A stretch of DNA of 64,000 nucleotides from Deltaproteobacteria bacterium (GTDB lineage Bacteria; Bdellovibrionota; JACOXK01), in the NCBI GenBank assembly GCA_016186995.1, contig JACPKQ010000022.1, positions 78,556 to 142,555 of the forward strand. Reading direction: 5' to 3'. The notes beneath the pieces were generated by a model that searched no databases, was not told the origin of the DNA, and saw nothing but the letters and a program-made list of their open reading frames with translations. Positions 2,918 to 63,945 of this stretch are shown piece after piece; within the stretch, counting starts at the first letter, position 1, and every line of letters begins with the position of its first letter. Made by a program: the position numbers and the translations under genes.

Positions 2918-5386
2918 TCAAATGCTATCAGTGCTTCCTATGTAGAATTTGTCTGGGTGTAAGTACTCTTCAATCAGTTTTAAGGTTTCAGAATAAGAAA
3001 GAAGTTGAGTATATTTTTCTGGATTTAATGGAAGATCAAAAAGAACAGCTTTGCTCAAGAACAGGGGGCGTTTAAGAGAATTTGAAAACATATATTCTTT
3101 TTTGGTTAAAAACCTATTTTTAATCCATGTCCATTCTTTTTGTGGCAATTTTTTATTATAAAGATTTTTAATTGTGTTTTGAAATTGTTTAAGAACAGTT
3201 TTTTTTAATACTTCTGAAGAAATAAATTCAAAGGCAAAGAGTGAATCTTCAGGATAATCAAAAAAATAAGAATTAAGAAAATGAGGGTGATTTTGTTCTA
3301 GCTCATGCGTTAGGTACCCAAAAAGAGGAGCACTACTTGGGTTTTTAACACTTACAGGAAACCCAGCTGATAAATGTAAGTAGCGAGCGCCACTGTGCTC
3401 AGAGCTTTCTCGAATGAGTAAAGGAGGTGAGGGTGGGAAAAAGCTTTCTTTTTGAGAAACATTTTGTGACATTTTTTGAAAGTATTCCTCAATATGGGAT
3501 TTGGCTTTAAGACTTGTCATATTTCCTGTGAAACAAACGAGCGTGTTTTGTGCAAAAATATTTTTTTCATAAAAACCAGCAAAGTCTTTTTCATCAAAAT
3601 TTTCTTCAACTTTGATTTTTGAAAAACTCATTTCATGAAGAAGTGAAGAGGGTTTTGAAATAAAATAACTATTTGTTGCTTCAAAATATTTTTTTGCATT
3701 TTCAACATTTTGCTTTGTGAAATGAGGATGAAGAAAAATATCCGAGAGAAGAAAAATAAACTCTTTAATGTTATTTTCCGGTAAAGAAAAAGAATAACCT
3801 AAGTATTGTGGGTGAATAACGGGTTTAAGGGTTACATGAAGCCGAGTTAATTCTTCCTGAAGCGTGTGGGCATCAAATGTTTTTGTACTCTGAGTTAAAG
3901 TCAGTAGGAAGGTTTTTAAAAAATTTTGTGAAACATGGGTTGAAAGATTTTTAAAAAGAATTGTTCCATAAGTATAATCTAGACTTTTTTCTGTGAGAAT
4001 AACGAGTTTTAATTGGTTTGAAAGTGTAAACTGCTCAACATTAATTTTTTCTTGGTTTTTATGGTTTTTAAAACGTATAAAATTTTTTGTGGAAGGAGTA
4101 AAAGCAGTTTCACTGTCTAGTTTAAGATTTGTTTTTTCAACTTGAGTTTGAATTGTGCTTTCAATGAGAGAATAAGAGGGGATTGTGTTTTTAATATGAA
4201 AATAAGTTTCATATAATTTTTTAAAATCCTCACTGGGCGTTTTAAAAACATCTTTTATATTTTGAAAATTTTCTTTTGTAGCCGAAAGAAGAGCTATTTC
4301 ACGTGCTTGGGTCGTATAAGAAGAACCTAAACTTTCATATTCTTTTAGAAAACTTTCTAAGCCCCCGTCATAAATAGATTGAGGGATTGCTTTTTTAAGT
4401 TGTTCTATCGTTGCAAAAAGAAGAACGTGTGCCTTCAAAACATCTTCACCATTGAGGCCAAATTGAAATCCATAAAGAGTGTTGTTTCCTAAAGGAAGTT
4501 CAAAAGTATTTGTTTCAATCGCAATATCTGTTTTAGAGAGATTTTTCAAAAATGCTTGTTTCAAAATGTGTAAAGCAAGACTTGTTTTCAGTTTCAAAAC
4601 TTTTTCGGGGCCTATGAAAGATATAATAAGCTCTGCATGCTTAGGTGTGATTTGTGCTTGCGCTTTGATGTTGGAAGATGAAGAAGGTGACCCAAGCAGG
4701 GGCGCCTCGCCTTGTTGAAGATGAGTGGCACGCTTTTCAATAAAACGAAGTAATCTTTTTGCATTAAAATCGCCTACAAAAGAAAGCGTGATGTTTTTTG
4801 AAGTAAATTTTTCTTTATAAAATTCAGTCAGGTTTTGTAAATTGATATTTTCAATTTCTTTATCAGAATAACGTTCTTTTCCAAGAAAAACTTTTTCTGT
4901 GAATGAAAAAAAATCATTATAATTTTTTATTTTAATATTGTGAGTCACTTTGTTTATTTTAGTTGGGTCAAGATATGGTTTTGAAAGAAGATCAAAAAGT
5001 ATTTCCACGGCTACTTCTTTTTTAGAACTAGGACCTTCTAAATCTATTGTGAGATAATTTCCAAAGAGAGAGGTTTGAAGGGTGAGTTTATGACTATCCA
5101 TATAATAGGGATCACTTCCTCTTAAAAGAAGCTTTTGAAAAGTTTTTGCATAGAGAAGTTCTTTGGCAGTTGGGGTAGAAGCACTTATTGGAATAAGAGT
5201 TGAAATACCTATTCTTGGTTTCAGACGATCTTCTTTAAGAAAAACTGTGAGTCCATTGGGAAGACGTACTTTCGAAACACCTTCTCCATTTTGTGGAAGG
5301 TGAAACCACGTGCAGGAAGAAAAAATCAAGACACATACTAGAAGCAGAATTTTGAAGGAAATCTTGAACATAGCCGTCTTTTCCAT
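2918..5386 (-). CDS. M16 (insulinase-like) family protein with degenerate catalytic motif, predicted lipoprotein/secreted
   Basis: LPNGLTVFLKEDRLKPRIGIS start typical of M16; internal FYKEKFTSKNITLSFVGDF; HxxEH absent; lipobox-like VLIFSSC. Confidence 0.75.
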   Translation of the reverse strand: MEKTAMFKISFKILLLVCVLIFSSCTWFHLPQNGEGVSKVRLPNGLTVFLKEDRLKPRIGISTLIPISASTPTAKELLYAKTFQKLLLRGSDPYYMDSHKLTLQTSLFGNYLTIDLEGPSSKKEVAVEILFDLLSKPYLDPTKINKVTHNIKIKNYNDFFSFTEKVFLGKERYSDKEIENINLQNLTEFYKEKFTSKNITLSFVGDFNAKRLLRFIEKRATHLQQGEAPLLGSPSSSSNIKAQAQITPKHAELIISFIGPEKVLKLKTSLALHILKQAFLKNLSKTDIAIETNTFELPLGNNTLYGFQFGLNGEDVLKAHVLLFATIEQLKKAIPQSIYDGGLESFLKEYESLGSSYTTQAREIALLSATKENFQNIKDVFKTPSEDFKKLYETYFHIKNTIPSYSLIESTIQTQVEKTNLKLDSETAFTPSTKNFIRFKNHKNQEKINVEQFTLSNQLKLVILTEKSLDYTYGTILFKNLSTHVSQNFLKTFLLTLTQSTKTFDAHTLQEELTRLHVTLKPVIHPQYLGYSFSLPENNIKEFIFLLSDIFLHPHFTKQNVENAKKYFEATNSYFISKPSSLLHEMSFSKIKVEENFDEKDFAGFYEKNIFAQNTLVCFTGNMTSLKAKSHIEEYFQKMSQNVSQKESFFPPSPPLLIRESSEHSGARYLHLSAGFPVSVKNPSSAPLFGYLTHELEQNHPHFLNSYFFDYPEDSLFAFEFISSEVLKKTVLKQFQNTIKNLYNKKLPQKEWTWIKNRFLTKKEYMFSNSLKRPLFLSKAVLFDLPLNPEKYTQLLSYSETLKLIEEYLHPDKFYIGSTDSI

Positions 5387-5465: not shown

Positions 5466-5647
5466 GCTCTTAAAATGGTTACTATCTTTCGCTTCATGGC
5501 TCGCTGTAGTTGCCATATCGAATTCTTCATTATCCCGTAAGTGCTAAAGCACTGTCCGGGATGCACAGTTTTGAATATTTACAAATCGTGGGCTGCGCTT
5601 TATTTCCGCTCCAGATAGTAACCATTTTCTCACATAAACTCGAATGC
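5466..5647. repeat. Palindromic composite repeat E1 (conserved ends, 16-bp perfect closing stem)
   Basis: aaaatggttactatct (5472-5487) is the exact reverse complement of agatagtaaccatttt (5613-5628); flanks gctcttaaaatgg and ccattttctcacataaactcgaatgc recur elsewhere. Confidence 0.8.
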
Positions 5648-5687
5648 AACATAAAGTTACCTAGTATGTTTTGAAGGCACATATAAT

Positions 5688-5843
5688 CAAAAGATAGGGA
5701 TAGTGCTTACAGAGGGTCGTGTCGGAAGGCAAGCTGGCTTGGTCCACATAGAATATGTGGCAGATTGACTGAGACGCGAGGCGCACTTTTTCGCAGGAAA
5801 AAAGTGACGCCGTACCCGAGGGAAGTACTATCCCTATCTTTTG
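5688..5843. repeat. Structured repeat E2, ~156 nt with predicted three-way-junction fold; second copy at 47195-47348
   Basis: 21-bp terminal stem caaaagatagggatagtgctt/aagtactatccctatcttttg; inner hairpins ccacata-gaa-tatgtgg and ggcgcacttttt/aaaaaagtgacgcc; core nearly identical to the 47195 copy. Confidence 0.85.
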
Positions 5844-6034
5844 TGCCCATTTTAAGAACCTAAGAACGAGCTATGGTGTGAAATATTAAGTGTTATCAAG
5901 TGGTTAGAAGTCATTGATAAGTTCTCACACAGTTTGTTCTGGCGATTTCATTGACGCTTATACCCTAAGATGCTAAAATTATTAGCATAGGGGTTGTGTT
6001 GGATTTTCCGTCCTTGAAGGAGTCCTAACATTTT

Positions 6035-6958
6035 ATGAATACATTAGTTTTAGCCTTACTGGCACTCGGTGTGGGTGTGTTTTGGGCTAGCCTTCAATTT
6101 TTTAAGAAGGATGAGCTTGAAATTTACTCAGAAGAAAAGCTGGGTGAAGAGAAAACAAGAAAGACGCCTTCTCTTGTTTTTAAATTAGCCTTGCCTGTGA
6201 TGAGCCGGTTCATGGTGCCATGGGTAAGAAATCTTAAAATTGATAATTTTAGAAAGAAAGCCAAAAGAGACATTATCTCTGCTGGAATGGAAGAAGAAAT
6301 TGACCCAGATGAACTTTTTTCTTTTAAAATTCTTTTAGCACTTCTTTTTCCTACAGTTATTGGTTTTGTGAGTATTTCGTATGGTTATGGTTTTTCTCCT
6401 TTGGCACTCATTGTTGTTGCTTTTTACGGGTATATTTTTCCTTATCTCTGGATAAAATCAAGAATCAAACAACGCCATCAAGATATTCGTAGAGCCATGC
6501 CTTTTGTTGTTGATCTTCTTACTCTTTCAACAGAGGCAGGGCTTGATTTTATGGGTTCGATTGCTCGTGTTGTTGAAAAATCAAAACCAGGTGCTTTTGT
6601 TGATGAGTTGCGACGTGCTTTACATGAAATTCAATTAGGAACATCTCGAGCTGATGCTCTCCGAAAAATGTCATGGAGAATTGACATGAGTGAGGTGTCT
6701 TCTTTTGTGGCCGTGCTTGTCAGTGCAGATCAAATGGGGGCCAGCATCGGTCGTGTTTTAAGGGCTCAAGCAGATCAAATTCGAAATGAGAGATTTGTGA
6801 GGGCTGAAAAAATGGGAGCAGCAGCCGCCCAAAAAGTTTTATTGCCGCTTTTTTTCTTTATTTTGCCAGCGGTATTTCTCGTTATTTTTGGACCACTCGT
6901 TTTAAGAGTACTTCCAGATATTGGTGCTATTTTGGGTGGAGCAACTATTGGTGGTTAA
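6035..6958 (+). CDS. tadC: Tad system inner-membrane platform protein, T2SF domain (TadC-like)
   Basis: Membrane helices and T2SF motif (RAMPFVVDLLTLSTEAGLDFMGSIARVVEKS ... ADQMGASIGRVLRAQADQIRNER). Confidence 0.88.
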   Translation: MNTLVLALLALGVGVFWASLQFFKKDELEIYSEEKLGEEKTRKTPSLVFKLALPVMSRFMVPWVRNLKIDNFRKKAKRDIISAGMEEEIDPDELFSFKILLALLFPTVIGFVSISYGYGFSPLALIVVAFYGYIFPYLWIKSRIKQRHQDIRRAMPFVVDLLTLSTEAGLDFMGSIARVVEKSKPGAFVDELRRALHEIQLGTSRADALRKMSWRIDMSEVSSFVAVLVSADQMGASIGRVLRAQADQIRNERFVRAEKMGAAAAQKVLLPLFFFILPAVFLVIFGPLVLRVLPDIGAILGGATIGG

Positions 6959-18388: not shown

Positions 18389-18990
18389 AATTGTTGCGAA
18401 GCTTAAGTTCTTGGAATGGCATAATAACAACTTTGGTTCTGAGTAGGGAGGGTATTTACCCAATCCCTACTCTCTCATGGATACGTGTCATTGCGAGTGC
18501 AGCGAAGCAATCCCCTAGAATTCTTAAAAGAATTCTAGGAGATCACCACGGTTCATTTCATGAACCTCGTGATGACAGAAAAGCTGAAAAGGGGCAGGCG
18601 TTGACTGAATTTTTGCTTATTTTTATTTTACTTCTTTTTTTAATTCTTCTTCACTTTCAAGCTTCCATGAGTTTTGTTTCAAGTTCCTATATGAACTATG
18701 TTTCTTTCATGGGGGCTCGTACCAATATGGTGAGTGGAGAAGATCGTGCCCGGGCTGTTATTGAAAACATGTTAGGGCCATCTGAAGCAGGTTATCTAAG
18801 CCCTTTTGCTAGAGCAGAAGAAGCTCGGGTTACAGAAGGTGGGGTGGGTATTCCTTATAAATCCTATCTTTATATTCCTATTTTAAGATTTCAGGGACAA
18901 AAGGAAATGAATTTAGAAGCTACAACCCCTATGCGAAGAGAACCTGATTCTAATGCCTGTGGAAATCTGGAGCATGACAATGGGTGCTAA
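18385..18990 (+). CDS. TadE-like pseudopilin with repeat-derived N-terminal extension
   Basis: ATGA overlap with upstream gene; EKGQALTEFLLIFILLLFLILLHF; residues ~6-67 derive from repeat DNA. Confidence 0.75.
   Translation: MKLLRSLSSWNGIITTLVLSREGIYPIPTLSWIRVIASAAKQSPRILKRILGDHHGSFHEPRDDRKAEKGQALTEFLLIFILLLFLILLHFQASMSFVSSSYMNYVSFMGARTNMVSGEDRARAVIENMLGPSEAGYLSPFARAEEARVTEGGVGIPYKSYLYIPILRFQGQKEMNLEATTPMRREPDSNACGNLEHDNGC
18402..18590. repeat. Composite palindromic repeat (boundary + swapped-stem module + 'gtcattgcgag' REP-like unit) in frame in TadE-like gene
   Basis: cttaagttcttggaatgg boundary; gagtagggagggt/accc..tccctactc hairpin (18441-18472); gtcattgcgag...gcgaagcaatcccctagaattc...gaattctagg...ctcgtgatgacag. 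Confidence 0.8.
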
Positions 18991-20378: not shown

Positions 20379-22202
20379 ATGAGAACTTATAAAATAAATA
20401 ACACAGTTAAGTTCTTGAAATGGCTAGTTTACATAAACACGAGCTTAAGCAAGCACACTATTCGTGACTATGTGAAGAAATGGTCAGTGTTTGGAGCGGA
20501 AGTAAAGCGCAGCCCACGGTTCGTAATAAAAAGAATATCGATCCTTTGGCTGAAGCCTCTGGATGACAAACTACAGCGAGCCATGAAGCGGAAAACACTG
20601 CCATTTCAAGAACCTAAGCTGCAAAATACATTATTGCTGTTGATAACCTTTTTTTTACTAAGCATCTCAAGTATGAATACCGCTTTTTCGAAGACGGAAG
20701 AGAAGGTGGATATTCCTACTGTTTATCTTAATTTTACAAACAATATTCCAAAGTTTCGCCGTGTTGATTTTTCCATTGGTAGAGTTGTTCCAGCAGATAG
20801 AAATATTGCAAATGGGCTGATTCCACCAGGGCAAAAAGTGCCAAGTCTTATTCACTTTATTCCTAAAACACCCGGGCTTACAAGTATTACTGTTTACGAT
20901 ACCAAAAATAACCCACGTATTGTTTACCAAATTACAGTTCTCTCCAAAGATCAGGGGGCTATTATTTCTGAACTCAATCAACTCTTAGGAGAAGTCGAGG
21001 GTATTCAGATAAGCCCAGTAGGTACTAAGGTCGCTATTGGTGGAGAAATTATTTTGCCTCGTGATTTAAGAAAAATTATTTCTGTTATAGGTCAAGTTGA
21101 TAAAGATAAAGATTATAAAGGTAAAATTATTTTAACTGCAGCTCTTTCAGATCTTTCAAAACAACTGATTGCTAACATGATTATGAGAGAAATTTCAGAA
21201 AATGAAGCTCTTAAATCTGTAGCCGCCAAGGTTTATGTAAAACCTATTAAAAATAATTTTCAACTCGTAGGTATTGTTGATACCGATGATCAAAGAAAAA
21301 AAATAGAAACCATTGCTTTTGAATTCATTCCCGATTTTTATAGAGAGCCTTCTCAATTTAAAGAATTTGAAATTCAAATGCCCTTACCACGAATTGTAAA
21401 CTTGATCGATTTAGCGCCTGAAAAGAAAGAAGCACCTAAAGCGCCCACACTTTATAAGATTACAGCTCGTTATGTTGAGATGAATAAAAACTATCTTCGT
21501 CAGTTTGGTATTGATTGGGGACCAGGGTTTGTGGATACCTCAAAGCTTGAGGTCGATTCTGAAAAGGTAGGTGTTATTGGAGCTGTCACAGGAACAATAA
21601 ATAGCCTCATTCCAAAATTAAAAACGGCCAAGGAATTAGGTTTAGCGCGCGAACTTCAAGCTTTTGAAATTCTTATAACTGAAGGAGAAAACGGCATTAT
21701 TTCTAATGTAACGAATATTCCTTTTCCTGTGATTGGCGAAAGAGGGCAAGAGGGCACCGAGTTTGCTCCGACAGGTTTAGATGCAGTCGTCAAACCAAAT
21801 GCTATTGGAGATAAAGCCAATAATGTTAAATTAGCACTTAAGTTCAGTCTTAAAACATTAGCTGGTTTCGTCAATGCTAGACCTTCTATTACTGAAAACA
21901 AAATGGATACAACCATTACTCTTAAACCAGATCAAAGTGCTGCTATTGGTGGTTTAGTGACGGCAAGTTTAGGAAAAGAGTTTAATAGAATGCCTAAAGC
22001 AACACAGGAAATATCAGATCCTATTTTTAGATTACTTCGTTCTAAAGCGTTTCGAGATAATAAGTCTCAATTTGTTATTTTCGTGACTCCTCAGATCATG
22101 ACAGATGTCAAAGTGAATGCTGAGGCTTCTACTGTTGGAGATAAGTTTAACATCAAGTTACCTGAGGCTATTAAAGATGATCCGGGGTTAACGGAGAATT
22201 AA
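20379..22202 (+). CDS. cpaC: Tad/T2SS-type secretin (CpaC/RcpA-like), N-terminus contains repeat-derived sequence
   Basis: BON/secretin-like C-terminus (AIGGLVTASLGKEFNRMP ... FVIFVTPQIM); signal peptide core LLLLITFFLLSISS lies downstream of repeat; ATG at 20379 has an upstream SD. Confidence 0.82.
   Translation: MRTYKINNTVKFLKWLVYINTSLSKHTIRDYVKKWSVFGAEVKRSPRFVIKRISILWLKPLDDKLQRAMKRKTLPFQEPKLQNTLLLLITFFLLSISSMNTAFSKTEEKVDIPTVYLNFTNNIPKFRRVDFSIGRVVPADRNIANGLIPPGQKVPSLIHFIPKTPGLTSITVYDTKNNPRIVYQITVLSKDQGAIISELNQLLGEVEGIQISPVGTKVAIGGEIILPRDLRKIISVIGQVDKDKDYKGKIILTAALSDLSKQLIANMIMREISENEALKSVAAKVYVKPIKNNFQLVGIVDTDDQRKKIETIAFEFIPDFYREPSQFKEFEIQMPLPRIVNLIDLAPEKKEAPKAPTLYKITARYVEMNKNYLRQFGIDWGPGFVDTSKLEVDSEKVGVIGAVTGTINSLIPKLKTAKELGLARELQAFEILITEGENGIISNVTNIPFPVIGERGQEGTEFAPTGLDAVVKPNAIGDKANNVKLALKFSLKTLAGFVNARPSITENKMDTTITLKPDQSAAIGGLVTASLGKEFNRMPKATQEISDPIFRLLRSKAFRDNKSQFVIFVTPQIMTDVKVNAEASTVGDKFNIKLPEAIKDDPGLTEN
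20405..20625. repeat. Composite palindromic repeat E5 inside cpaC N-terminus
   Basis: gaaatggtcagtgttt (20477-20492) pairs with aaaacactgccatttc (20592-20607); ends match repeats at 5466 and 42148. Confidence 0.85.
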
Positions 22203-22300
22203 TTCTGGATCCCCGCCTTCGCGGGAATGACAGAGGTTGTCAGTGAAGATCGCCACGGGTTCTTTCCAAGAACCCTCGCGATGACAGAGAGGATTTACGG
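22200..22300. repeat. REP-like fragments (tggatccccgccttcgcgggaatgacag; gatcgccacgggttctttccaagaaccctcgcgatgacag)
   Basis: Direct sequence match to other copies in the window. Confidence 0.8.
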
Positions 22301-24459: not shown

Positions 24460-24471
24460 TTATACTCAAGG

Positions 24472-24548
24472 TCATCCCCGCGAAGGCGGGGATCCAGGAT
24501 TTCTAGATTCCCGCTTGTGCGCTGAGCGCTAGTGCGGGAATGACAGAA
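24472..24548. repeat. REP-like 'VIPAKAGIQ'-type palindromic repeat
   Basis: gtcatccccgcgaaggcggggatccag...gattcccgcttgtgcgctgagcgctagtgcgggaatgacag. Confidence 0.85.
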
Positions 24549-40719: not shown

Positions 40720-41796
40720 TTAGAAAATAATCACTGTTTGAAAGGTTTTATCTTTTTTATGAAAAGAAAGCGTGCCTGAGAGGGTTTTAACTATAAGCCC
40801 AGAAAGAGGCAGTCCTAAGCCTAAACCACCTTGGTGGTATTTCATATCTTTCGGGTTATTAAGATCTCCAAAAATATTTTTAAATTCTTTTTGAGAAAGG
40901 TTTTGGGTCTTGTTTTCTATAAGAATTTTAACATTTTTTTGTATTCTCTCACTCTCTATTTTAAGCGTGCCCTTATCCTCATTATAAATAAGAGCATTTT
41001 CAATAAGGTGGTAGAAGAGAGATTCAAGCAGTTTGGGGTCTCCTTTTATCTTGAGAGAGGGGATCGCAAGAGTAACTTGTATTTTTTGTTTTTGAATAAG
41101 TGTGTCAAAATGGGACAGTGTTTTTTCGATGACACACTTTAAATCTATGTTTTCGGTTTTGATTTTGTGAGTTTGTGTTTTAAGGGTAGTTAAAAGAATC
41201 ACATCTTCTGCCATGCGTAGAAGTTTTTGGGCAGCTTTATGAATATATTCTAAAGCTGTTTTGTCAGTGTTGTCATTCCCGCGAAGGCGGGAATCCAGAT
41301 TTTTGCCTTCAAGAAGAGTTTCTGTAAACCCTAAAATAGTCGTAAGAGGTGTTCTTAAAGCATGAGAAATAACGTTTAGAAAAGATGTTTTGGCTTGGTC
41401 AAGAGTTTTTAGTTTTACTTCTGCAAGTTTAAGTTTTAATCCTTTTTCTACAATGTTTTTAAGTCTATGACTATCCCACGGTTTTGTTTCAAAATGATAA
41501 ATTTTGCCTTCATTAATAGCCGAAATAATAGATTCGATATCGGCATAAGCTGTGATGAGGATACGAACGGCATCAGGGTTCAATGCAATCGATTTTTCAA
41601 GCATGTGGGCACCTGTCATTTCAGGCATTCTTTGATCGCAAATAATAACTGAGACAGGTTTTTCAACGAGGAGTTTTAAGCCCTCTTTGGCTGAAAGGGC
41701 TGTGAGTACATCATAATCCTTCCAAAACACCCTTTTTAAAGCATCGAGGGTGTCTTGATCGTCATCTACTATCAGGATTTTATGCTTCTCGCTCAT
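40720..41796 (-). CDS. Receiver - HisKA - HATPase hybrid sensor kinase
   Basis: Receiver (VDDDQDTLDAL...IICDQRMPEMTG), HisKA (SHALRTPLTTILGF), HATPase (GGLGLGLPLS); contains repeat-derived NLDSRLRGNDN. Confidence 0.9.
   Translation of the reverse strand: MSEKHKILIVDDDQDTLDALKRVFWKDYDVLTALSAKEGLKLLVEKPVSVIICDQRMPEMTGAHMLEKSIALNPDAVRILITAYADIESIISAINEGKIYHFETKPWDSHRLKNIVEKGLKLKLAEVKLKTLDQAKTSFLNVISHALRTPLTTILGFTETLLEGKNLDSRLRGNDNTDKTALEYIHKAAQKLLRMAEDVILLTTLKTQTHKIKTENIDLKCVIEKTLSHFDTLIQKQKIQVTLAIPSLKIKGDPKLLESLFYHLIENALIYNEDKGTLKIESERIQKNVKILIENKTQNLSQKEFKNIFGDLNNPKDMKYHQGGLGLGLPLSGLIVKTLSGTLSFHKKDKTFQTVIIF
41269..41300. repeat. REP-like repeat inserted in frame in the histidine kinase HisKA domain
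   Basis: ttgtcattcccgcgaaggcgggaatccagatt. Confidence 0.9.
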
Positions 41797-41819: not shown

Positions 41820-42275
41820 TGTCATCCTGAGCCGCTTCATGGCTCGTGTTCAAAAATCCTTCAACTTTAAGTTCTTAAAAATGGCCACAAAAGACAGGGA
41901 TAGTGCTTCCCTCGATATATTACATCGGTGGGACTGTATTTCTCAAAAACACGCTATCAAAATTCCCTGCGAGAATTTTGCGCTCTCTCTCGGCCGCGAG
42001 AAGGTTTTTTTGAAACACAGTTCCACCTCTTTATATCTTTTGCCCTATAACTTTATTCTCGAGTTTATGTGAAGATGGGCTGAATTTCGAGTCCATGAGA
42101 GAGTAGGGACTGGGTAAACACCCTCCCTACTCAGAACCAAAGTTGTAATTATGTGAGGAAATGGTCAGTGTCTGGAGCGGAAGTAAAGCGGAGCTCTATG
42201 AGGCCTTGCCGAATAAAGAGCGAGCCATGAAGCGGAAGACACTGCCATTTCAAGAACTTAAGTTCGAATAAACCC
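41820..42275. repeat. Composite palindromic repeat block (E3 + swapped-stem module + E4 + REP-like)
   Basis: Boundary aagttcttaaaaatgg (41869-41884); stem gtgggactgtatttc/gaaacacagttccac (41928-41942/42012-42026); module 42092-42151 is the reverse complement of 18427-18481; stem gaaatggtcagtgtct/agacactgccatttc (42158-42173/42237-42251). Confidence 0.85.
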
Positions 42276-44311: not shown

Positions 44312-44346
44312 AAATACCTGGGGCCCTTGCCCCGGGTATTTTTTTG
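44312..44346 (+). terminator. Rho-independent terminator
   Basis: aaatacctggggcccttgccccgggtattttttt. Confidence 0.85.
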
Positions 44347-44362
44347 TCTTATAAATAGGTTC

Positions 44363-46921
44363 ATGAATCTATCTCACACCCCCATGATTGAGCAGTACTT
44401 ACGGCTTAAAAAACAATACCAAGATTGCATTCTTTTTTTTAGATTGGGTGATTTTTATGAGATGTTTTTTGAAGATGCCAGAGCTGCTTCAAAAATCCTC
44501 AACCTCACTTTAACTTCCCGTTATAAAAAGACAGATCACGAAGTTCCTATGTGTGGAGTGCCCCACCATGCAGCTGGCTCTTATATTAAAAAGCTCACTC
44601 ACAAGGGCTATCGTGTTGCTATTTGTGAGCAAACAGAAGAACCGCAACCTGGAAAAAATATTGTTGATCGCGATGTGGTTCAAATAGTAACACCTGCGCT
44701 TCCCTTTAATGAAGATGATCTTTTAGGAGAAGAAAACTATTATCTTATGGCAGTGTGTCCAACTTCACCTGTCATTGCGAGTGAAACGAAGCAATCCCAT
44801 CGCGGTAGCGATGAGATCACCACGCCCTCTGTCATCCCGGAAACGCGGAGCGTTATCCGGGATCCAGGGATCCAGAATTCAGAACTCCTGGATTCCCGCT
44901 TTCGCGGGAATGACAATAAAATTTTCAATGTTGCCTACATGTCTATTGTGACAGGAGAGTTTTATACTTTTTCCTGCGCCTCTCAAGAAGAGCTTATTTC
45001 AGAGTTGACTCGAATTGACCCTAAGGAAGTTTTAGTAGAAGAATCTTTCAAAAACGCAGAATGGGTGCAGTCTTTAAAACGAGAAAATTTTTATATTTAT
45101 TTTATTGCTTCCGCTCGTCATTGCGAGGAGTCAAAGACGACGCGGCAATCCCATCGCGGTAGCGATGAGATCACCACGCCCTACGGGCTCGTGATGACAC
45201 CCTGTTATTCTGCACAAGACATTTTATTTGAATATTTAAAACTCACAAAACATTATAAAACTACACTTTCTCCAGATTCAAACCTTCATCAAAACATGGT
45301 TTTAGATGGTAAAACTTTAAAAAACCTTGATGTTGTCCATCCATGGGGAGAAGAAAAACAATCTCTTTTTAAAACGCTTAACTTCACAAAATCAGCTTGT
45401 GGCGGAAGGCTTCTTAAAAAGTGGCTTAAATTTCCTCTTCTCAAAAGAAATCTCATTGAAGAGCGTCTCCACATTGTAAAAAAACTTTTTGATGTTCAGT
45501 ATTTAAGAGAATCTCTTCAAAAAAAATTAAATAACGTTTACGATTTAGAAAGAATTTGTTCCAAACTAGAGAGAAACCGCGCCCACCCGAAAGATTTAAA
45601 ACAACTTTTAGTAACCTTGGAGGTGGCCGTGGGGCTTCAGGCTGATGCGGCCCCCCTGTCATTGCGAACGAATGTGAAGCAATCCCCTAGAATAAACTCT
45701 TTAGTTGAAGATCCTCCTTTAAGTTTTTATGAAGGGGGTGTTTTTAAAAAGGGCTATTCCAAAGAGCTTGATGAGCTTATTGATTTAACTCACAATTATA
45801 AAACATGGGTTTTGCGTTATGAGGAAGAAGAAAAATCAAAAACAGGGATTTCTAGTCTTAAAGTAAAATATAATTCTATTTTTGGTTATTATATCGAAGT
45901 TCGAAAAACAAATTTAGATAAAGTACCTGAAACCTATCACAGAAAACAAACTCTTGTTCAAGCAGAAAGGTATACAACAGAAGAACTCAAAGATTTTGAA
46001 TCAAGAATTCTTTCCGCAGAAGTAAAAAGAAAAAAACTAGAAACTCAACTTTTTGAAAAACTGAGAGAAGATTTAAAAAGTTCTCTTTACCTTTTTATGA
46101 AAATAGGTACGGCTTTAGCAGAGCTTGATGTTTTTTGTGCACTTTCAGAAGCAGCGAATCGTTATCATTATGTCATGCCTCATATTGTAGAAGATCAAAG
46201 TTTAAAACTTTTTCAAAGTCGTCATCCAGTTGTGGAACAGGGTCACGATTTTATCCCCAACGATATTGTTATAGAAAAAGGGCATCTCCATCTTATTACG
46301 GGGCCTAATATGGGTGGAAAATCAACTGTGATGCGGCAGGTGGCTCTTTCACTTCTGATGATGCAGATGGGGAGTTTTGTGCCTGCAGAAAAAGCTTTTC
46401 TTCCTATCGTTGATCGCATTTTTACCCGAATTGGGGCTTCTGATGATATTGCTCAAGGAGAGAGTACTTTTATGGTTGAGATGAAAGAAACTTCACATAT
46501 TTTAGCATCTGCGACACATCAAAGCTTTATTATACTTGATGAGGTGGGGCGTGGCACAAGTACATTTGATGGATTGAGTTTAGCGTGGTCTATTGCTGAG
46601 TGGATTGTAGAAGAAATAAGGTGTCTGACGCTGTTTGCAACGCACTATCATGAATTGACTGTTCTTTCTCAAAAATATGAAAATATTAAAAATGAGCATA
46701 TGGCAGCTCTTAAAAAAGGAAATGAGATTGTTTTTCAAAGAAAACTGAAACCAGGTGCTTTAAGTGCAAGTTTTGGAATTGAAGTGGGGCGTTTGGCAGG
46801 TCTTCCTGTGCAACTTTTAGAAAGGGCCCAAGAAGTGTTAAAAGGGCTTACCTTGCAGTCTCGTGAAAGCAAACCATCGTCTCTCAAACCCTCACCTTCC
46901 ACCCAAAAACTCCTCTTTTAA
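44363..46921 (+). CDS. mutS: DNA mismatch repair protein MutS, carrying three repeat-derived in-frame insertions
   Basis: FFRLGDFYEMFFEDA, TGPNMGGKST, DEVGRGTSTFDGLSLAW, FATHYHELT; ORF start (44327) precedes the likely ATG at 44363. Confidence 0.95.
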   Translation: MNLSHTPMIEQYLRLKKQYQDCILFFRLGDFYEMFFEDARAASKILNLTLTSRYKKTDHEVPMCGVPHHAAGSYIKKLTHKGYRVAICEQTEEPQPGKNIVDRDVVQIVTPALPFNEDDLLGEENYYLMAVCPTSPVIASETKQSHRGSDEITTPSVIPETRSVIRDPGIQNSELLDSRFRGNDNKIFNVAYMSIVTGEFYTFSCASQEELISELTRIDPKEVLVEESFKNAEWVQSLKRENFYIYFIASARHCEESKTTRQSHRGSDEITTPYGLVMTPCYSAQDILFEYLKLTKHYKTTLSPDSNLHQNMVLDGKTLKNLDVVHPWGEEKQSLFKTLNFTKSACGGRLLKKWLKFPLLKRNLIEERLHIVKKLFDVQYLRESLQKKLNNVYDLERICSKLERNRAHPKDLKQLLVTLEVAVGLQADAAPLSLRTNVKQSPRINSLVEDPPLSFYEGGVFKKGYSKELDELIDLTHNYKTWVLRYEEEEKSKTGISSLKVKYNSIFGYYIEVRKTNLDKVPETYHRKQTLVQAERYTTEELKDFESRILSAEVKRKKLETQLFEKLREDLKSSLYLFMKIGTALAELDVFCALSEAANRYHYVMPHIVEDQSLKLFQSRHPVVEQGHDFIPNDIVIEKGHLHLITGPNMGGKSTVMRQVALSLLMMQMGSFVPAEKAFLPIVDRIFTRIGASDDIAQGESTFMVEMKETSHILASATHQSFIILDEVGRGTSTFDGLSLAWSIAEWIVEEIRCLTLFATHYHELTVLSQKYENIKNEHMAALKKGNEIVFQRKLKPGALSASFGIEVGRLAGLPVQLLERAQEVLKGLTLQSRESKPSSLKPSPSTQKLLF
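44764..44922. repeat. Two adjacent REP-like repeats inside mutS
   Basis: gtcattgcgagtgaaacgaagcaatcccatcgcggtagcgatgagatcaccacg + gtcatcccggaaacgcggagcgttatccgggatccaggg...ctggattcccgctttcgcgggaatgacaa. Confidence 0.92.
45115..45200. repeat. REP-like repeat inside mutS (second site)
   Basis: cgtcattgcgaggagtcaaagacgacgcggcaatcccatcgcggtagcgatgagatcaccacgccctacgggctcgtgatgacacc. Confidence 0.92.
45656..45695. repeat. Partial REP-like repeat inside mutS (third site)
   Basis: ctgtcattgcgaacgaatgtgaagcaatcccctagaat. Confidence 0.8.
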
Positions 46922-46935
46922 AATTCTTCAGCAAC

Positions 46936-47165
46936 TTTAGGTTCTTGATAGCCTCAATGGCCCTCATGAACAACCTTGGTTCTGAATTGGGGCACACACA
47001 GCCAATTCTCTCATGGATACGTGTCATTGCGAGCGTAGCGAAGCAATCTCCTAGAATTGCTTTAGCAATTCTAGGACAACACTTGCGTGTTGAGATCGCC
47101 ACGGGTTCTTTAAGAACCCTCGCGATGACAGCCAGACCATTTCTTCACATGGTCACGAATAATTG
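46936..47165. repeat. Composite repeat: swapped-stem module plus REP-like unit
   Basis: ttaggttcttgatagcc boundary; gaattgg/ccaattc stem (46984-46990/47002-47008) in the same flanks as 18427; gtcattgcgagcgtagcgaagcaatc...cctcgcgatgacag; accatttcttcacatgg boundary. Confidence 0.85.
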
Positions 47166-47194
47166 ATGCGAAAAATAAAAACTAAAGCTTATGT

Positions 47195-47348
47195 AAAAAA
47201 CAGGGGGAGTGCTTGCAGAGGGTCGTGTCGGAAGGAAATCTGGCTTGGTCCACATAGAATATGTGGCAGATTGACTGAGACGCGAGGCGCACTTTTTCGC
47301 AGGAAAAAAAGTGACGCCGTACCCGATGGAAGCACTCTCCCTGTTTTT
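47195..47348. repeat. Structured repeat E2 (second copy)
   Basis: Core nearly identical to 5709-5822; terminal stem aaaaaacagggggagtgctt/aagcactctccctgttttt differs from copy 1 but is self-complementary. Confidence 0.88.
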
Positions 47349-47421
47349 GTTACCATTTCAAGAACTTAAGTACCGTTCTGAGATGACAGGGATGGAGTTT
47401 TTTGTTAGGTTTTCAAAGATT

Positions 47422-63819: not shown

Positions 63820-63945
63820 GAGATTCTTCGCTTCGCTCAGACAAAGCTGTAATTCATGCTGTAATCCACACCTCGTCATTGCGATTGTTCTCTCTGTCAT
63901 TGCGAGCGAATGAAATGAGACCCGGGGATCCAGTATTTTCTCTTT
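63820..63945. repeat. REP-like repeat fragments
   Basis: gagattcttcgcttcgctcagac; cgtcattgcgattg; ctgtcattgcgagcgaatg...ggggatccagtatt. Confidence 0.75.

Follow-up and report, generated by a model that had tools for sequence, protein, structure and literature searches.

An uncatalogued family of folding DNA elements with a common core and site-specific outer stems in one small bacterial class

The repeat described here belongs to a previously uncatalogued family of folding DNA elements of ~150 bases which, among the genomes searched, occurs in one small bacterial class only. Copies in all eight genomes of that class have one homologous, strand-asymmetric three-way-junction fold, with a core that is common to them and an outer stem that is specific to the site, and they are tolerated both between genes and in the linkers of protein genes. 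They are probably class-specific, non-autonomous mobile elements that behave like the Rickettsia palindromic elements (RPE), with a core that is recognised, stems that are rebuilt and cores that are inverted by template switching.

Copies in the window and in its genome

The window, that is, the whole stretch of DNA that was analysed, spans 64,000 nt of a Deltaproteobacteria genome (G000 below; its seven relatives are G001 to G007). As the original prediction had it, two copies lie at 5688-5843 and 47195-47348, with near-identical cores of ~105 nt and with closing stems that differ between the copies and are each self-complementary. The proposed three-way junction with two hairpins was likewise borne out, the minimum free energy (MFE) fold of a sister copy (L011) having the same architecture. 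The features are as follows; R2 is the relatives-trained covariance model described in the next section.

5688..5843, + strand: element copy 1, whole, type A, with terminal stem, three-way junction and two hairpins (R2 match 5703-5828, E 4.2e-22); it lies between an M16-peptidase-like gene (2918-5386, - strand) and a T2SSF/Tad-like gene (6035-6958, + strand)
5688..5707, + strand: copy 1, P1a 5' arm of the terminal stem, partner 5824-5843
5714..5717, + strand: copy 1, P1b 5' strand GGGT, partner 5814-5817
5718..5726, + strand: copy 1, P2a 5' strand CGTGTC and internal loop GGA, in which the middle base is G or C and the other two are conserved to at least 99%
5737..5743, + strand: copy 1, near-invariant 5' bulge GCTTGGT, the counterpart of GGGCAYGG in the relatives
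5744..5760, + strand: copy 1, P2c hairpin, with compensatory CG/UA and GC/AU changes among copies
5771..5778, + strand: copy 1, invariant internal loop GA and P2a 3' strand GACGCG
5780..5811, + strand: copy 1, P3 hairpin with a 3' bulged A and loop CGCAGG
5824..5843, + strand: copy 1, P1a 3' arm
5472..5863, no strand assigned: mosaic intergenic repeat enclosing copy 1, with flanking modules common to many other intergenic sites
41883..42044, - strand: third window copy, degenerate; a core of type B, shortened by a deletion, is joined to a 3' terminal arm of type A (R2 match 41936-42018, E 5.7e-12)
47195..47348, + strand: element copy 2, type A (R2 match 47209-47335, E 3e-22), with mutS (44327-46921) on one side and a lysyl-tRNA-synthetase-like gene, starting near 47419, on the other

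The flanks of the two type A copies differ, so that they do not derive from one segmental duplication, and this origin was rejected. Nor does the genome hold exactly two copies: a genome-wide count, which the original prediction had proposed, gave far more. A similarity search with a 171-nt element query gave 40 matches in G000 (1.68 Mb), ~26 of them full or nearly full copies and the rest variants and fragments, including one internal duplication; the relatives-trained covariance model counted ~48. One 228-nt variant in the same genome has part of its P3 hairpin exchanged for another hairpin module. All type A copies, which are scattered over dozens of sites, carry one terminal stem of ~20 bp, and three more element types (B, C, and D) have the same architecture with terminal stems unrelated to each other and to that of type A.

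The copies of G000 sit within mosaic intergenic repeats, and their flanks are themselves repeats; no clean recent empty site was seen. The orientation of family copies relative to the neighboring genes follows no rule (15 anti/anti, 9 same/same, and 11 mixed). Of 37 copies of G000 that were examined, none falls within a gene; hence, the in-frame behavior described below belongs to the relatives and not to the window copies. The mosaic repeats of the window (5472-5863, 18433-18499, 20407-20614, 41866-42264, and 46964-47371) have inverted copies of CTTAAGTTCTTGAAATGG as borders and several palindromic modules inside. Other dispersed palindromes, of the TCATTCCCGCGAAGGCGGGAATCCAG and TCATTGCGAGCGNAGCGAAGCAATC types, occur at 22196-22236, 24471-24502, 41270-41303, 47007-47076, and 63872-63908.

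The family and its fold

Homology among the types and among the genomes is carried by two covariance models. The first, R1, for which only the interiors of types D and B were used, recovers types A and C with E values of 1e-11 to 1e-21. The second, R2, was built from aligned copies of the seven relatives (alignment A5), with G000 never in training, and nevertheless finds the two window copies at the E values given above. At E ≤ 0.01, R2 recovers 121 copies in all eight genomes of the class, the relatives being draft genomes (48 in G000, 12 in G001, 8 in G002, 24 in G003, 8 each in G004 and G005, 7 in G006, and 6 in G007), and none in 366 other genomes of the phylum. Similarly, among 190 genomes of the phylum scanned with R1, all 8 of the class match and none of the other 182 does. 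DNA similarity searches with a window copy returned nothing outside its own genome, from which the repeat might be read as genome private; we reject this reading, since the covariance model, and this alone, reveals the relatives in the class. Plasmid and phage collections gave no match to the element, and a single sequence-pattern match in other genome contigs was a chance one with no element around it. In Rfam, a check that the original prediction had put forward, no known family matched: nothing scored above the gathering threshold for the element, and relaxed thresholds gave only weak matches far below gathering scores. The view that the repeat is not a known family thus stands.

The MFE fold of the sister copy (-88.1 kcal/mol; z = -11.4; none of 200 shuffles as stable) consists of a long terminal stem, a CGUGUC/GACGCG stem with a bulged hairpin, and a second hairpin, joined in a three-way junction. 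From the outside inward, the elements of the family run from the outer stem P1a over a small purine loop (often GA/GA) and P1b (~4 bp) to the junction. There, one branch comprises P2a, an internal loop GNA/GA, P2b, a large 5' bulge (GGGCAYGG, or GCTTGG in type A), and the P2c hairpin, and the other is the P3 hairpin, which is bulged on its 3' side and has a short loop of the GCW type. In 21 copies of G000, 96.8% of the pair cells are standard, and 14 pairs are changed on both sides, compared with 5 or fewer in controls with a slid partner. In an alignment of 80 distinct copies (A7), 93.2% of the pair cells are paired versus at most 47% in slid controls, covariation is 0.689 versus at most 0.144, and 45 of the 48 base pairs show two-sided, compensatory changes, although the alignments A4 to A7 were fitted to the structure and are to that extent biased in its favor.

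Cells with G.U far outnumber those with A.C (60:12, 112:3, and 45:4), which identifies the named strand as the folding strand. Moreover, the unpaired columns of the core have a conservation of 0.85, above the 0.71 of the paired columns, and the loop bases G23, A25, G127, and A128 as well as the bulge bases G37, C38, G41, and G42 are 99 to 100% conserved. Covariation alone could be produced by template switching, but conserved unpaired bases and strand asymmetry are hard to obtain in that way, and we infer that selection acts on the folded single strand.

A three-way junction with conserved internal loops would be a plausible geometry for a ribozyme. A self-cleaving or self-splicing RNA repeat, of which the original prediction had named the first as one possibility, is nonetheless extremely improbable: no Rfam ribozyme or intron family matches, even at relaxed thresholds, and copies that lie inverted in genes within uninterrupted reading frames need no RNA processing.

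Outer stems, orthologous sites, and in-frame copies

In contrast to the core, the outer stem is a property of the site. The two arms agree at 17.5 of 20 positions within a copy but at 6.35 of 20 between loci, and in the relatives nearly every locus has a terminal stem of its own. Arms at orthologous sites agree at 8 to 16 of 20 positions between genomes and at 17 to 20 of 20 within a genome. Within one genome, core identity is far above stem identity; thus, the copies in a protein kinase gene and in purL of G002 are 99% identical in their cores and differ in the outer parts of their stems.

These patterns bear on the original prediction of a "mobile ncRNA-like or MITE-like unit." Dispersal and structure were confirmed, and the MITE analogy did not hold up: in the relatives it is the interior that is conserved and not the terminal inverted repeats (6.4/20). 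The uniform stem of the G000 type A copies is what one would expect of a conventional MITE, mobilized by a transposase acting in trans on conserved terminal inverted repeats with the fold being incidental. Yet the stems of types A to D are unrelated, those of the relatives are nearly all their own, conservation lies in interior loops instead of termini, and Y1 transposases are absent from G000 and G003. We therefore regard the conventional MITE as very unlikely and, for the class as a whole, as largely refuted.

Comparison of orthologous sites, which rests on a few diverged linkers, reveals empty, filled, decayed, and inverted states. In the TrpE linker, the core is present in the + orientation in G005 and inverted between homologous arms in G002, while the site is empty in G003, G000, and G001 and holds other inserts in G007 and G004. 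The latter inserts (L116 in G007 and L118 in G004) are of similar length, were missed by the models, and are perhaps decayed copies or members of other element families. The PurL linker is full in G007, inverted in G002, reduced to decayed remnants in G005 and G006, and without an element in G004. The linker between LpxB and LpxK, which form one fused open reading frame (ORF) in all six f2-family genomes (L147-L151 and L153; G002 to G007), is full in G003, G005, G006, and G007, in both orientations, carries a scar in G002, and is unfilled in G004. By manual count, the net added length in the LpxB-LpxK and PurL linkers is ~105 to 108 nt, which implies that the arms occupy former linker sequence.

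Twelve of the 90 copy records examined, all in relatives, run in frame through ORFs, defined by at least 60 codons upstream and at least 40 downstream of the copy. The host genes encode LpxB-LpxK fusions, LpxB (in G004), TrpE, PurL, CtaA, a penicillin-binding protein (PBP), and a protein kinase. In 8 of 10 hosts scanned with Pfam, the copy lies between recognized domains: LpxB and LpxK (three genomes), TrpE N and chorismate-binding (two), PBP transpeptidase and PASTA, and PurL AIRS_C and AIRS (two). Seven of the 12 have the same orientation as the gene and five the opposite. In G003 (L136; ORF of 818 aa), the same PurL linker holds an in-frame palindrome of another kind (CTCTGATGCGGCATTGCAATTCGAGCATCAGAG... 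and ...CTGTGGCGGCATTGCAATTCGAGCCACAG), which suggests a second family of such inserts.

A structured RNA functional for the host, be it a cis-regulatory element, a terminator, an sRNA, or an element for mRNA stability, the usefulness of which led it to multiply, would account for the strong covariation, the conserved unpaired bases, and the strand asymmetry. It is quite unlikely, however, given the lack of a fixed orientation to the neighboring genes, the occurrence in coding linkers and in both orientations within ORFs, and the presence, absence, and decay at orthologous sites. Alternatively, insertion itself might make the arms, if folded single-stranded DNA (ssDNA) or RNA without ends of its own were primed into a replication fork and the target flank duplicated in inverted form. 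The two G002 copies with almost identical cores and different outer stems fit this proposal. On the other hand, the length added to the two linkers is about one core and not a core plus one arm, and the arms at orthologous sites go on changing together, so that a process acting after insertion is needed anyway. We consider formation of the arms by insertion unlikely.

Movement, template switching, and related systems

In the explanation that we favor, a mobile core with stems rebuilt by template switching, the unit that is moved and recognized would be the ~105-nt core (P1b, P2, and P3, with the invariant GNA/GA loop and the GGGCAYGG bulge), which may act as a folded single strand, either RNA or ssDNA. 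After insertion, template switching by DNA polymerase across the base of the hairpin would copy one flank onto the other, generating a perfect, locus-specific outer stem and keeping it perfect as mutations arise; the same process could invert the core. Copies without stop codons and of length 3n would be tolerated in linkers, allowing the element to persist even in essential genes. Sequence similarity shows that whole units of G000, each a core with its own type of fixed outer stem (A to D), have also spread within the mosaic intergenic repeats.

Inversions of at least 100 nt by template switching are less documented than short ones, and homologous recombination between the arms could be an alternative route to the inverted cores. 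The patterns above nevertheless point to template switching as the process that rewrites the stems and inverts the cores. It has been reported to yield both arm homogenization and spacer inversion in quasi-palindromes (PMC8604942), as we see here; perfect stems are likewise reported to be formed and preserved by it (PMC8794818). The class family differs in that its spacer is a conserved mobile core of ~105 nt and that the process would act at dozens of unrelated loci.

As to the mobilizer, we saw no transposition event and no mobilizing protein, Y1 transposases being the family searched for. These are absent from G000, G003, G005, and G007, and we reject them as mobilizers since G000 and G003 are the copy-richest genomes. 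Whole-element searches gave no copy obviously bracketing a gene, as a candidate autonomous transposon would. More tentatively, and on balance doubtfully, this could be a mobile element without ends of its own, the folded single-stranded core of which enters DNA via template switching at the replication fork, builds its terminal stem from the target, and flips inside essential genes. If so, flipping in place would provide alternative linker peptides.

To our knowledge, palindromic elements of the in-frame kind are on record for Rickettsia and Wolbachia, and they raise the question of how such elements move and why essential genes tolerate them. RPEs are short palindromic repeats of 105 to 146 bp with stable stem-loops, found between genes and in frame in conserved protein genes, with no known mobilizer (PMC2229807). 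The class family resembles them and the Wolbachia elements as a short palindrome (~105 to 150 bp) with a stable fold and many copies, and also in having intergenic and in-frame copies, the latter seen in the relatives and not in G000. Unlike them, it apparently belongs to a different bacterial group, has one three-way-junction core with loop bases invariant across the whole class, and, as far as seen, has site-specific outer stems and cores inverted at orthologous sites; the comparison with RPEs is by description. It would thus appear to be an independent case of in-frame palindromic elements, spanning a whole class.

The defining feature of MITEs is conservation of the terminal inverted repeats, usually with a target site duplication, whereas the class family has varying termini (6.35/20 between loci; four unrelated stems in G000) and a conserved interior. 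It shares with the bacterial MITEs Correia/NEMIS, ERIC/RU-1, and RUP, which are dispersed, non-coding, base-paired elements of 100 to 200 bp, some of them fused to ORFs (PMC2229807), its small size, dispersal, base pairing, and occasional ORF fusions. Likewise, it has intergenic palindromes in many copies in common with the REP/RAYT (REPIN) system. REPs are tied to Y1 (HUH) transposases, which are absent from G000, G003, G005, and G007. They measure 20 to 40 bp (PMC3733652).

With ~120 copies, the family adds an uncatalogued structured nucleic acid to those described and offers a natural system in which to watch template switching build and maintain long stems. Since empty, filled, decayed, and inverted orthologous sites are at hand, the origin, decay, and protein effect of such elements become testable.

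Two smaller observations concern G000. A mini-element (TTTTATGAATCATTTTTTAGTTTCACAAAAATGATTCATAAAA plus a conserved tail) occurs in four type A copies (L030, L031, L032, and L035) and one type D copy (L059), where it takes the place of one arm, the 5' one, of a T/A-rich hairpin; the structural position differs, being P3 in type A and P2c in type D. Finally, a minimal scar, AAGAGATAGGGAAGTACTATCCCTATCTCTT (L040; C19:105712-105735), has kept the type A stem and lost the entire core.
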